Assembly: GCA_001725155.1 (NCBI GenBank) | Contig: MEFP01000013.1 | Coordinates: 1-64,000, forward strand | DNA length: 64,000 bases | Direction of reading: 5' to 3' | Origin: Lysobacteraceae bacterium SCN 69-320 | GTDB taxonomy: Bacteria; Pseudomonadota; Gammaproteobacteria; Xanthomonadales; Rhodanobacteraceae | Part shown: positions 20,492-35,351 of the stretch, one piece after another | Layout: each line of letters starts with the position of its first letter | Position numbering within the stretch: position 1 is the stretch's first letter | Program-made: the position numbers and the translations under genes | Notes under the pieces: generated by a model | Seen by the model: only the letters and a program-made list of their open reading frames with translations | Databases searched by the model: none | What the model was told of the DNA's origin: nothing

Positions 20492-21289
20492 ATGGCGCAC
20501 GAGGGCAGTCTGGTCTGTGTGGGCCTGGGCATGACGCTGGGCTCGCACCTGAGTCCGCTCGCACGCAGCCATATCGAACAGGCCGACGTCGTGTTCGCCG
20601 GCGTATCCGACGGCATCGTCGAGCTCTGGCTGCAGGGCATGCACCCCGACGTGCGCAGCCTGCAGCCCTACTACCGCGAAGGCCTGTCGCGCCTGCGCAC
20701 CTACGAACAGATGGTCGAGGCCATCCTGACCGAAGTGCGCGCCGGCCGCAAAGTCGTCGGCGCGTTCTACGGCCATCCCGGCGTATTCGCACTGCCGCCG
20801 CATCGGGCGATCGCCCAGGCCCGCGCCGAAGGCTATGCCGCGCACATGGACCCGGGCATCTCGGCCGAGGACTGCCTCTACGCCGACCTCGCGATCGACC
20901 CGGGCCGCGTCGGCTGCCAGCACTACGAAGCCAGCCAGTTCATGTTCTACCGCCGCCGCGTCGACACCTCGGCTTACCTCGTGCTGTGGCAGGTCGGCAT
21001 CGCCGGCGACCAGTCCCTCGCGCGCTTCTCCACGCCGGCGGTCTACCGCGAAGTGCTCGTCGACGTCCTCGCCCGCGACTACCCGCGCGACCATCCGGCG
21101 ATCATCTACAAGGTCGCGACCCTGCCCATCCATACGCCGCGCATCGAACACACCACGATCGCCGGCCTCGTCGGCGCCGACATCGACCTGCACGCGACCG
21201 TCGTGCTGCCGCCGGCGCGCGAACTGGAGCCGGATGCGGAGGTCAGGGCGCGGCTGGATACGCTGGACGCGATGGTGGCCCATGCGTGA
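20492..21289 (+). CDS. Split-borosin-type peptide backbone alpha-N-methyltransferase (SonM-like)
   Basis: 265-residue member of the SAM-dependent tetrapyrrole-methylase fold. It opens with GSLVCVGLGMTLGSHLSPLA and has LRTYEQMVEAIL, FYGHPGVFALPPHRAI, DPGISAEDCLYADLAIDPG and EASQFMFYRRRVD, features I recall from the SonM/OphM borosin enzymes, not from CobA/CbiF. Those enzymes use SAM to methylate backbone amides of a precursor peptide (in trans for SonM). The Arg and Tyr of RxRTY correspond to catalytic residues in OphM. GGAGGGGAG (20482-20490) precedes the ATG. Its stop overlaps the GNAT start by 8 bases, and a precursor-like gene follows. A tetrapyrrole substrate is the alternative, but no cobalamin or haem genes are near. 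Confidence 0.82.
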   Translation: MAHEGSLVCVGLGMTLGSHLSPLARSHIEQADVVFAGVSDGIVELWLQGMHPDVRSLQPYYREGLSRLRTYEQMVEAILTEVRAGRKVVGAFYGHPGVFALPPHRAIAQARAEGYAAHMDPGISAEDCLYADLAIDPGRVGCQHYEASQFMFYRRRVDTSAYLVLWQVGIAGDQSLARFSTPAVYREVLVDVLARDYPRDHPAIIYKVATLPIHTPRIEHTTIAGLVGADIDLHATVVLPPARELEPDAEVRARLDTLDAMVAHA

Positions 21290-21824
21290 TCCCGATCTGA
21301 ACGCGATCGCCGCGGATTTCGCCTTCGACACGCCGCGCCTGCACGTGCGTCCGCTGCAGGACGAGGACGAGGCGTTCTACTGCGCGCTCTACACCGACGC
21401 GGACACGCAGCGGCATACCGGCGGCGCACTGGCGCCGGCCGCCGCGCGGCGCAGTTTCGCGGCCGCTCTCGCGGCGCCGCGGCGAACGCCGATGCAGCGC
21501 CTGTACCTGATGCTCTGCGAACGCCGCGAACGGAATGCAGTGGGCATGGTCGGGCTGAACGACATCGACGCCTCGGCGCGCCGCACCGAGATCGGCATTC
21601 TCATGAGTCCGCCGGCGCGCGGCGCCGGCTACGGGCGCGAAGGCTTCGGCGCGCTCGCCGAACAGATCTTTCATCGTCTGCCCATCGACGAAATCTATGT
21701 GCAGTACGCGACAGCGAACATCGGCGCGGATCGTCTCGCGACCGGCGTCGGCTTCCGCTACGCCGACCCGCCGGGACGCGTCTCCGGCGCCGATCAGCGG
21801 GTGGCCGTGATGTACCGTGGGTAA
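21282..21824 (+). CDS. GNAT-family N-acetyltransferase (RimJ/RimL-like)
   Basis: 180 residues. FDTPRLHVRPLQDEDEAFYCALYTD is the usual start of the Acetyltransf_3/RimJ-RimL group. The acetyl-CoA site is seen in IGILMSPPARGAGYGREGFGAL, with the R-G-x-G-Y-G pyrophosphate loop. It moves an acetyl group from acetyl-CoA to an amine, in this group often a protein or peptide N-terminus. It overlaps the methyltransferase gene by 8 bases (translational coupling) and precedes the precursor-like gene by 35 bases, so it may be a tailoring or self-resistance enzyme for the peptide (inference). Confidence 0.82.
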   Translation: MRDPDLNAIAADFAFDTPRLHVRPLQDEDEAFYCALYTDADTQRHTGGALAPAAARRSFAAALAAPRRTPMQRLYLMLCERRERNAVGMVGLNDIDASARRTEIGILMSPPARGAGYGREGFGALAEQIFHRLPIDEIYVQYATANIGADRLATGVGFRYADPPGRVSGADQRVAVMYRG

Positions 21825-21859
21825 GCGTTTCTCCAAAACCAACACAGTGAGGTAGAGCG

Positions 21860-22135
21860 ATGTCCAACGTCATCGATTTTCTGAACCGCATGGGCAGCGA
21901 CAGCCGCTTGCGGCATGCGGATGCGGCACTGCTCGCCGCCGCATTGCAGCAGGCCAACCTGGATCCCGAGCTGCAGGCGGCCGTCCTGGCCGGCGATCAG
22001 CAGCGGCTCGAAGCCGTGCTCGGCGCGCGCACCAACGTGATCTGCGGCCTGTCGCCGGCCGAACCCGACGATGCGCCGGAACCTGCCGACGACGACGAGG
22101 AGATTCGCGCGCTCCAGGTTGCGCGTGCCGGCTGA
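21860..22135 (+). CDS. Candidate split-borosin precursor peptide
   Basis: 91-residue protein. The N-terminal helical part (1-56), MSNVIDFLNRMGSDSRLRHA through DPELQAAVLAGDQQRLEAVLGA, resembles the precursor-binding domain of SonA in length, in its start (xxFLxxMGxDxxL) and in the (L)xxGDxxxLExLxG ending. The C-terminal 35 residues differ: hydrophobic NVICGL with one Cys, then SPAEPDDAPEPADDDEE, and a last helix-like RALQVARAG. In SonA-type systems methylation falls in the C-terminal hydrophobic stretch, so NVICGL is the likely core (inference). AGTGAGGTAGAGCG precedes the ATG. It lies 35 bases after the GNAT gene and overlaps the GGDEF gene. A Nif11-like leader or plain regulator is the alternative. 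Confidence 0.7.
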   Translation: MSNVIDFLNRMGSDSRLRHADAALLAAALQQANLDPELQAAVLAGDQQRLEAVLGARTNVICGLSPAEPDDAPEPADDDEEIRALQVARAG

Positions 22136-23969
22136 AACCCGCCACGGCCTGTCCCGGGCCGCCCGGCGCTTCGCGTCGGTCGGCCTTTTCCTGTTGTTGT
22201 CGCTGCTGGTCACGCACAAGGCGCTGACTGCGAGCAGCGACCAGATCAATCAGTGGCTGACCGACGCGGATCGGGTCAAGAGCTCCGATTACACGCGCTT
22301 CGCCTCGCTGCTGAACCAGGTCGACGTCGAAACCGACAGTCTCTCGTCCAGCCAGCGCCAGCTGCTCGCCTTCCTGCGCGCCTGGCAGCGCAACTACACC
22401 GGCGAATTCGATCAGGCCATCGTCGAGTTCAAGAACGTCATCGATCATGCGGACGACGAGGTGCTGCGTACCCGCGCCGGCGCCGCGATGATCAATGCGA
22501 TGGCCATCGCACGGCGCTATTCCGAGGCCTATTCCTATCTCGATCTGCTCGTGGAGCGCCTGCCGCAGATCGGCGACGCCAAGGCGCGCGACCAGATCCT
22601 TCACGTCGCGGCGCTGCTCAACAACGAAGCCGGCCAGTACGAGCTCGCGCTCGACTACAGCGCCAAGCTGCTGAGCCAGAGCCTCGGCGGCCGCGGCGAA
22701 TGCATGGCGCGCCAGCTGCTGGTGCAGACGCAGTACGAGCTGGACCAGCTCGAACCCGACGGCGCCGAAGTGAGCCAGGCGATCTCGGTCTGCGAGCGCA
22801 ACGTCGAGCCGATCTTCACGAATTTCGTGCGCGTGTTCGTCGCCCGCCGCCTGATCGACCGCCACCAGTACAAGGAAGCCGCGGCGCTGCTCGGCGGCAA
22901 ATACGACGAAATCCAGGCGACGCGCTATCCGCGTCTGACCACCGAGGTCGACGTGCTGCTGGCGCAGGCATTCTTCTCCAGCGGCGACATCTTCCAGGCC
23001 AAGGCCTATGCGCTGCGCGTGGTCGACCGCCGCGTCGCGACGGAAGTGACGGACCCGCTGGTCAGCGCCTACAAGCTGCTCTATCAGGTCGCGCTGCAGC
23101 AGGGCGACGAGCGCACGGCGCTGTCCTACCACGAGAAATACGCCGAGGCCGATCGCAAGAACATCGACGACGTCAGCGCGCGTTCGCTGGCGTATCAGAT
23201 GGTGCGCCATCAATCGATTGCGAACCGGCTGCAGATCGAAACCCTGAACAAGCAGAACCAGGTGCTGCAGCTCGAACAGCAGCTCGGCGCCAAGGCCGCG
23301 GAGACCAGCCGCCTCTACATCGCGCTGCTCGTCGCCGGCCTGCTCATGGTGTTTCTCTGGGCCTTCCACACCAAGCGCCGCCAGCTGCATTTCCGCCGCC
23401 TGTCGCAGCAGGACGGCCTGACCGGCGTCGACAACCGGCCGCATTTCCTCGACATCGCGCAGCGCTCGCTCGACGAATGCCGTCGCGGCAGCCGCGAGTG
23501 CACGTTGATCCTGTTCGACCTCGATCATTTCAAGATGATCAACGACCGCCACGGCCATGCGGCCGGCGACATCGTGCTCAAGCAGGTGTCCGCGGTCTGC
23601 CGTACCTATCTGCGGCCCAACCAGTATTTCGGCCGCATCGGCGGTGAAGAGTTCGCGCTGCTGCTCGTGGACTGCGGCCTGGAACGCGCCCAGCTGTTCG
23701 CCGAGCAGCTGCGGCAGGCGGTCGCGGCGACGAATGCGGCGGCCGGCCTCGACGGCGTCGTGATCTCGGCGAGCTTCGGCGTCGCAGCGGCTTCCGAATC
23801 CGACTATGAACTGCGCCAGCTCATGGCCAGGGCCGATGCGGCCATGTACGTCGCCAAGCGCGACGGCCGCAACCGCGTCGTCGTTTCGCATCCGGACGCC
23901 GTTCCGTTGCGACTGGGCCGCAGCGGCATCGTCGCGATCGTCGACGATGCGCGATTGACCCGACCGTAG
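22125..23969 (+). CDS. Membrane TPR-type diguanylate cyclase (GGDEF)
   Basis: 614 residues from a GTG at 22125 with AGG 6 bases upstream; this start overlaps the precursor gene. N-terminal membrane helix FASVGLFLLLSLLVTHKAL, then a long helical TPR-like region (about 40-380), probably periplasmic, a coiled coil, a second membrane helix (LYIALLVAGLLMVFLWAF) and a C-terminal GGDEF domain with active-site GGEEF (from residue 506) and LFDLDHFKMIND. The product inhibition site RxxD is RPNQ, so feedback through it is probably lost. It should make cyclic di-GMP in response to a periplasmic signal. Start and direction suggest co-translation with the borosin genes. A longer start (ATG 22071) would overlap the precursor by 65 bases. 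Confidence 0.8.
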   Translation: MPAETRHGLSRAARRFASVGLFLLLSLLVTHKALTASSDQINQWLTDADRVKSSDYTRFASLLNQVDVETDSLSSSQRQLLAFLRAWQRNYTGEFDQAIVEFKNVIDHADDEVLRTRAGAAMINAMAIARRYSEAYSYLDLLVERLPQIGDAKARDQILHVAALLNNEAGQYELALDYSAKLLSQSLGGRGECMARQLLVQTQYELDQLEPDGAEVSQAISVCERNVEPIFTNFVRVFVARRLIDRHQYKEAAALLGGKYDEIQATRYPRLTTEVDVLLAQAFFSSGDIFQAKAYALRVVDRRVATEVTDPLVSAYKLLYQVALQQGDERTALSYHEKYAEADRKNIDDVSARSLAYQMVRHQSIANRLQIETLNKQNQVLQLEQQLGAKAAETSRLYIALLVAGLLMVFLWAFHTKRRQLHFRRLSQQDGLTGVDNRPHFLDIAQRSLDECRRGSRECTLILFDLDHFKMINDRHGHAAGDIVLKQVSAVCRTYLRPNQYFGRIGGEEFALLLVDCGLERAQLFAEQLRQAVAATNAAAGLDGVVISASFGVAAASESDYELRQLMARADAAMYVAKRDGRNRVVVSHPDAVPLRLGRSGIVAIVDDARLTRP

Positions 23970-24032
23970 AGCGCACCACCGCACCGATCGACGTCTTCGA
24001 AGTCAGCAGCCCGAGGGGTGTGCGAGACGATC

Positions 24033-35351
<11,319 letters not shown>

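Follow-up and report, generated by a model that had tools for sequence, protein, structure and literature searches.

A candidate split-borosin operon from a Lysobacteraceae bacterium with a putative N-methylated peptide signal and a linked TPR-GGDEF diguanylate cyclase

Background

The described system closest to the operon reported here is the type IV SonM-SonA pair of Shewanella oneidensis. In the sections of the SonM article covered here, Y71 is called an active-site residue, R67 is included in the top lock, F99 and W166 are included in the bottom lock, and Y93 is named only as lying near the bottom lock (PMC8429565). Our operon lies in a window (the whole stretch of DNA analyzed, 64,000 nucleotides) from Lysobacteraceae bacterium SCN 69-320, and it shares with SonM-SonA a related enzyme (E 2.5e-75) with the same active-site residues, a discrete precursor with a borosin binding domain (BBD) and, as seen in a near-identical Shewanella locus, a continuation into a gene for a TPR-GGDEF protein. 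It differs in having a GNAT gene between the enzyme and the precursor, a longer acidic tail and a Cys in the core.

The RRNPP receptors (Rap, NprR and the arbitrium receptor) resemble the window cyclase in their TPR superhelix and in the small precursor gene that adjoins them, and RRNPP receptor-peptide pairs duplicate and diverge. They are defined as cytoplasmic receptors acting on DNA or on a phosphotransfer protein, whereas the TPR domain in the window is joined through a transmembrane helix to a GGDEF domain and is predicted to be periplasmic, and the accompanying peptide is predicted to be backbone N-methylated. A further likeness is to the shewasin loci: all 15 PF00026 genes found in 77 Shewanella genomes adjoin a borosin methyltransferase of the window type, whereas the pepsin homolog in the genome of the window lies on another contig (L207). 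Shewasin D is reported to be mainly cytoplasmic and to prefer Leu, Phe and Tyr at P1, and the portion of that article covered here contains none of the words "operon", "methyltransferase" and "GGDEF" (PMC4814920).

Gene organization of the locus

The source genome (5.71 Mb) belongs to the same genus as Tahibacter caeni, and the methyltransferase of the window is 94% identical to its counterpart in that species. Four tightly packed genes, all on the + strand, encode the methyltransferase, the GNAT, the precursor and the TPR-GGDEF protein, with the following features:

20492..21289, +, SonM-type alpha-N-methyltransferase, 265 aa (PDB SonM, E 2.5e-75; GGAGGGG precedes the gene)
21282..21824, +, GNAT acetyltransferase (Acetyltransf_3), 180 aa (Pfam, E 6.1e-21)
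21860..22135, +, predicted discrete borosin precursor, 91 aa (BBD leader, hydrophobic core, acidic tail; profile and model)
21860..22018, +, predicted borosin binding domain, residues 1-53 (profile, AlphaFold2 model, Foldseek)
22025..22063, +, probable core ARTNVICGLSPAE, residues 56-68 (aligns near the SonA linker/core region; inferred position)
22119..23969, +, TPR-GGDEF putative diguanylate cyclase, 616 aa from TTG at 22119 (GGDEF, E 6.2e-39)
22125 and 22071, +, alternative cyclase starts: GTG at 22125 (614 aa) and an in-frame ATG at 22071
22233..23309, +, TPR sensor with long signaling helix, predicted periplasmic (AlphaFold2, Foldseek)
22701..22703, +, invariant sensor Cys157, first of a pair (98/98; 136/136 in the wider alignment)
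22791..22793, +, invariant sensor Cys187, second of the pair (98/98; 136/136 in the wider alignment)
23313..23369, +, predicted transmembrane helix preceding the GGDEF domain (hydropathy)
23406..23876, +, GGDEF catalytic domain with a GGEEF active site and without an RxxD I-site

The initial annotation had described the first three open frames, and all three are intact: the 265-residue methyltransferase carries the motifs YGHPGVFA, DPGISAEDCLYADL and EASQFMF, the GNAT gene starts at an ATG and overlaps it by 8 nt, and the gene for the 91-residue protein begins 35 nt 3' of the GNAT gene. The proposal made there of a split-borosin locus is supported by the SonM-type enzyme, the BBD leader and the operon layout. 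Absent from that annotation was a conserved third partner, the putative diguanylate cyclase gene 3' of the precursor, which overlaps the 3' end of the precursor gene by 11-17 nt from its TTG or GTG starts and by 65 nt from the ATG.

An NRPS-like ORF of 3777 residues (24018-35351) begins on the same strand 48 nt past the cyclase stop, and by eye it seems to hold a methyltransferase domain (CGSGLLLL). NRPS-related sequence was also seen 3' of the cyclase in three loci of the same genus (L034, L035 and L036), with no match at L037 and L038.

The methyltransferase

A tetrapyrrole methylase was the identity against which the proposed borosin enzyme was to be checked. Among the 26 PDB matches of the methyltransferase (E <= 0.1), 25 were SonM or fungal borosin methyltransferases, with SonM as given above and fungal OphM at about 1e-50, and the sole tetrapyrrole enzyme came in at E 0.061; with matches so overwhelmingly to borosin methyltransferases, the tetrapyrrole methylase reading was ruled out. 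The only Pfam match at E 1 was TP_methylase (4.3e-17), a superfamily that takes in the borosin enzymes. The SonM residues R67, Y71, Y93, F99 and W166 do not vary in an alignment of 18 rows reaching down to 42% identity. Judged by these sequence comparisons, the product of 20492-21289 is a borosin backbone N-methyltransferase, and it very probably methylates a small peptide on its backbone. The source genome has two further PF00590 genes, both on other contigs.

The precursor peptide

Searched as a single sequence, the precursor had no significant match to SonA in the PDB (best E 0.16), and a Smaug chain ranked first in the same search (E 0.14). A 36-row precursor profile, which included SonA-like rows, reached SonA at 2.5e-16, and a 26-row profile without such rows matched seven distinct PDB sequences at E <= 1, all of them SonA, with E values from 6e-6 to 7e-5. 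An AlphaFold2 model built on 36 rows (pLDDT 75, pTM 0.48) folds residues 2-53 into five helices. In a Foldseek search with this model, SonA chains took the first ten places (prob 0.98 and target TM 0.74 for the best, at an E of only 0.47), with LigAB next in the ranking. The likeness to SonA that had been noticed in the start and fold of the 91-residue protein is thus borne out by both the family profile without SonA-like rows and the structural search, and by profile and model the protein is a discrete borosin precursor with a predicted five-helix BBD. A Nif11 identity was considered and rejected, the weak Pfam match (E 0.062) scoring 14 bits where the cut-off is 23.8.

Across the relatives, a short hydrophobic stretch comes after the leader (NVICGL in the window and NVCCML, MFHVLE, PQITQ and others elsewhere), which is often trailed by Pro and then usually by an acidic tail. 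Exceptions are the Lys-rich tails of L087 and L092 (Steroidobacter and Povalibacter) and the Pro-rich tail of L056. Judged by eye, L100, L088 and L097 repeat the core stretch, and the unit EEEIR occurs four times in Tahibacter aquaticus (L037/L076), in three cases after GGDK. The exact core position in the window precursor is presumably the one listed above. No signal peptide was seen by eye in the precursor.

Second precursors in two MAGs (L109:11641-12171 and L112:5331-6068) have in common an unusual core, R(T/V)IAHK(N/V)IT, and each has its own cyclase adjoining.

Association with diguanylate cyclase genes

Our locus set comprised 162 loci with 154 distinct methyltransferases; 80 of the 162 are the best 80 of at least 554 confirmed relatives, so that the set is biased towards the kin of the window. 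For 140 of the 154 methyltransferases, a same-strand cyclase match longer than 800 nt was found no more than 2.5 kb away. When matches to GGDEF proteins were counted in 1 kb bins, the three bins covering 0-3 kb downstream held 145 on the same strand and 0 on the opposite strand, and counts in the remaining bins ranged over 0-7 for the same strand and 0-2 for the opposite strand. Fourteen of the 154 have no nearby same-strand cyclase: L093 and L105 lie at contig ends, L073 has no more than a GGDEF-sized match, upstream of the methyltransferase, L190 has a divergently placed cyclase about 0.6 kb from the methyltransferase, and ten distant methyltransferase loci (L161-L167 and L196-L198) have no such cyclase in their flanks, which in L164 contain one remote GGDEF-sized match. 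The cyclase is upstream of the methyltransferase in L070-L072.

The same gene order is found in a Shewanella locus with a methyltransferase that shares 99.2% identity with SonM across 254 residues. There the SonA homolog ends 6 nt before the gene for a 594-residue GGEEF protein that matches the window cyclase over residues 15-585, and by way of this near-identical locus the cyclase linkage, as read from the sequences, reaches the characterized SonM system. Neither "GGDEF" nor "diguanylate" occurs in the portion of the main text of Miller 2021 covered here, and no paper linking borosins to c-di-GMP was found in the literature searched; within that literature, the cyclase link is new.

Sensor and cyclase domains

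AlphaFold2 modeled the sensor as a helical-repeat superhelix (pLDDT 94.8, pTM 0.89) that ends in a long terminal helix (293-358). The sensor sequence of the window had no Pfam match at E 0.01, and TPR_14 matched 74 of 98 sensor relatives. The best PDB matches in Foldseek were eukaryotic LGN, and the first 50 included Rap with CSF or a phage pheromone, RapF with a peptide and NprR with NprX. Because TPR folds are generic, the fold of the sensor indicates a capacity and does not name the ligand. Hydropathy predicts that the TPR sensor is periplasmic, and the invariant Cys157 and Cys187 may form a disulphide in the periplasm.

A loose GGDEF-like pattern picked out 137 nearby ORFs, of which 136 carry GGEEF; in 135 the motif follows a hydrophobic segment. 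By hydropathy alone, 105 of the 137 have an N-terminal hydrophobic segment as well, with a borderline score in the window copy. The active site was also read without selection for the motif and was GGEEF in 155 of 159 cases, the others being GGEEI, GGQQF, GAAEF and GGDEF. An RxxD I-site was found by a simple pattern in 102/137 and is lacking in the window copy. With its intact GGEEF motif, the window gene is a diguanylate cyclase gene as far as sequence can tell.

Co-occurrence of the sensor class and the methyltransferase

The sensor profile was made from 98 of 119 non-redundant sequences, all of which had been chosen as methyltransferase neighbors, and was used at E <= 1e-20. Among 61 relatives, the methyltransferase was present in 33 genomes and the sensor class in the same 33; among 77 Shewanella genomes, the methyltransferase was present in 67 and the sensor class in the same 67 (the ten negatives were compared by eye). 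For 369 Gammaproteobacteria, where at most 5 candidates per genome were scored and the sensor search was therefore less sensitive, the methyltransferase was found in 10 genomes, and three of these 10 were the only genomes in which the sensor was found. Among the genomes without a methyltransferase, the sensor class was thus found in 0/28, 0/10 and 0/359, the 359 having had the shallower search, and its absence there cannot be put down to how the profile rows were chosen. These genomes are not mutually independent, and presence is patchy within genera. The seven methyltransferase genomes out of ten in the class-wide sample in which the sensor was not found, together with the ten cyclase-free loci, indicate that the link defines a subset of the split borosins.

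Paired duplication of precursor and cyclase

Of 156 same-strand GGEEF cyclase ORFs in the flanks, 145, spread over 130/154 loci, closely follow a precursor gene, and two or more precursor-cyclase pairs were found in 14 loci. Comparison of coordinates in the 61 relatives revealed eight sensor-class matches far from any methyltransferase, in seven genomes, and a precursor lies directly upstream in six of these eight unlinked cyclases. The unlinked cyclase of L205 is intact and has no detectable precursor, and that of L206 is broken. The unlinked and the duplicated pairs both indicate that the unit that duplicates and moves is the precursor together with the cyclase. Several of the unlinked precursor-cyclase pairs (L199-L204) have a core of the FYSIQMP/FSILMPGEEEE kind.

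Distances over 127 loci gave a partial correlation between tail and sensor of 0.163 given the methyltransferase and GGDEF distances (0/500 permutations), falling to 0.126 when the leader was also controlled. The methyltransferase-tail value was -0.005 given the sensor and GGDEF, and the GGDEF-tail value was 0.103 given the methyltransferase and sensor; the weak tail-sensor correlation, seen beside that of GGDEF and tail, may stem in part from a more clock-like sensor. The leader-sensor correlation was 0.405 given the methyltransferase and 0.293 given GGDEF too. In the multi-pair loci, sensor and tail similarity agreed in 20/20 quartets that passed the threshold, from 117, and sensor and leader similarity agreed in 18 of 19 informative quartets. 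The quartet agreement and the correlations fit a cognate pair, and they also fit plain duplication as a unit without binding.

Accessory genes

The additional GNAT, which the initial annotation had singled out as a feature not known from the characterized systems, is real and recurrent, adjoining the methyltransferase in 37/154 loci (directly 3' in 25 and directly 5' in 12). A core Cys is present in 36 of 39 GNAT loci, a set to which L078, L079, L080, L087 and L092 were added by hand because their GNAT lies further along or appeared in one analysis only, against 27 of 97 others. On the tree this comparison reduces to only 5 independent pairs, for which a sign test is undecided, and we offer specificity of the GNAT for Cys-containing cores as a lead.

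A pepsin-like aspartic protease gene lies further 5' in eight loci (L135, L144, L146, L183, L184, L186, L067 and L110), which are window-type loci of Shewanella and Thalassomonas, together with Arenimonas donghaensis and L067. PF00026 (E 1e-5) was found in 15 of 77 Shewanella genomes, and comparison of coordinates placed all 15 genes within 1.8 kb of a window-type methyltransferase (defined in Shewanella by E below 2e-113; 24 genomes), on the same contig and strand. Nine of these 24 genomes are without PF00026 at E 1e-5, and among them L186 has a BLAST homolog. Of the 61 relatives, seven have PF00026, all of them methyltransferase-positive, and 26 positives are without it at that cut. The homolog on another contig of the source genome is 46% identical to the Arenimonas protein, and the PF00026 match of G019 is of another type than the operon-linked pepsin homologs. 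Family and genus suggest that the 15 Shewanella genes are shewasins, and the pepsin-like protease may cut borosin precursors; no paper joining borosins with an aspartic protease was found in the literature searched.

No dedicated exporter was found among the conserved neighbor families of at least 110 aa between -5 and +6.5 kb. Some Shewanella neighbors are conserved through the synteny of close relatives.

Proposed function and alternatives

The pairing of precursor and cyclase suggests that N-methylated peptides act as bacterial signals. Starting from the enzyme and leader families, the operon, the cyclase motif, the matching distribution and the paired duplication, we propose a course of methylation, processing, export and binding in which the methyltransferase would dock the precursor through its binding domain and N-methylate backbone amides in the short hydrophobic core (NVICGL here). 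In some lineages the GNAT would probably acylate the peptide, and in some a cytoplasmic pepsin-like aspartic protease would probably cut it. The mature peptide would pass to the periplasm or the outside and bind the TPR superhelix of its cognate membrane diguanylate cyclase, altering c-di-GMP output in one direction or the other. We lean somewhat towards this reading of the locus, a split-borosin operon with a signal product in which the methylated peptide binds as ligand to the c-di-GMP sensor paired with it. Counting against it, no signal peptide was seen by eye in the precursor and no conserved transporter among neighbors of at least 110 aa, yet the sensor is predicted, from hydropathy, to be periplasmic. 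The broader proposal, a new class of peptide signaling in which SonM-modified N-methylated peptides, probably matured by pepsin-like proteases and GNATs, are the ligands of periplasmic TPR cyclases, is advanced tentatively, as a serious possibility.

The peptide could instead be an effector borosin (metal-binding, antimicrobial or envelope-active), with the cyclase sensing another cue and coordinating production with lifestyle. What the loci display is linkage and nothing beyond it, operons often hold sensors for unrelated cues, and acidic tails and Cys-containing cores could bind metals. Shared regulation alone, however, does not predict that extra cyclases should mostly bring their own precursor, even when unlinked, and no genome without a methyltransferase yielded the sensor class in any of the three samples, of which the class-wide one had the shallower search; we regard an effector as unlikely, but as a reading to be taken seriously. 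It has also to be considered that the precursor protein itself, and not the mature peptide, is the regulatory partner of the cyclase and that methylation tunes their interaction. A conserved folded leader, the close pairing, the lack of a dedicated exporter among the neighbors searched and a leader-sensor correlation stronger than that of tail and sensor all speak for such a role, which we nevertheless hold to be improbable: the predicted topology sets the TPR domain across the membrane from a cytoplasmic precursor, apparent tandem duplications of the core point to the core as the product, and a pepsin-like protease belongs to the Shewanella operon. That the locus is an ordinary split borosin and its cyclase link an inherited accident of gene order would agree with the synteny kept by close relatives. 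It is very hard to reconcile with the way in which other neighbors change while the methyltransferase, precursor and cyclase stay together, with cyclases placed upstream (L070-L072) or divergently (L190), and with the same distribution in two genome sets, and we give such an accident very little credence.

Conclusions

Because the sensor class matches the methyltransferase genome by genome in two samples, the function proposed here, with the methylated peptide as the ligand of the cyclase, is directly testable. If it is true, it would be the first biological role for split borosins, SonMA included, it would join RiPP chemistry to the c-di-GMP control of biofilm and motility, and the bacterial pepsin homologs would gain a candidate substrate.
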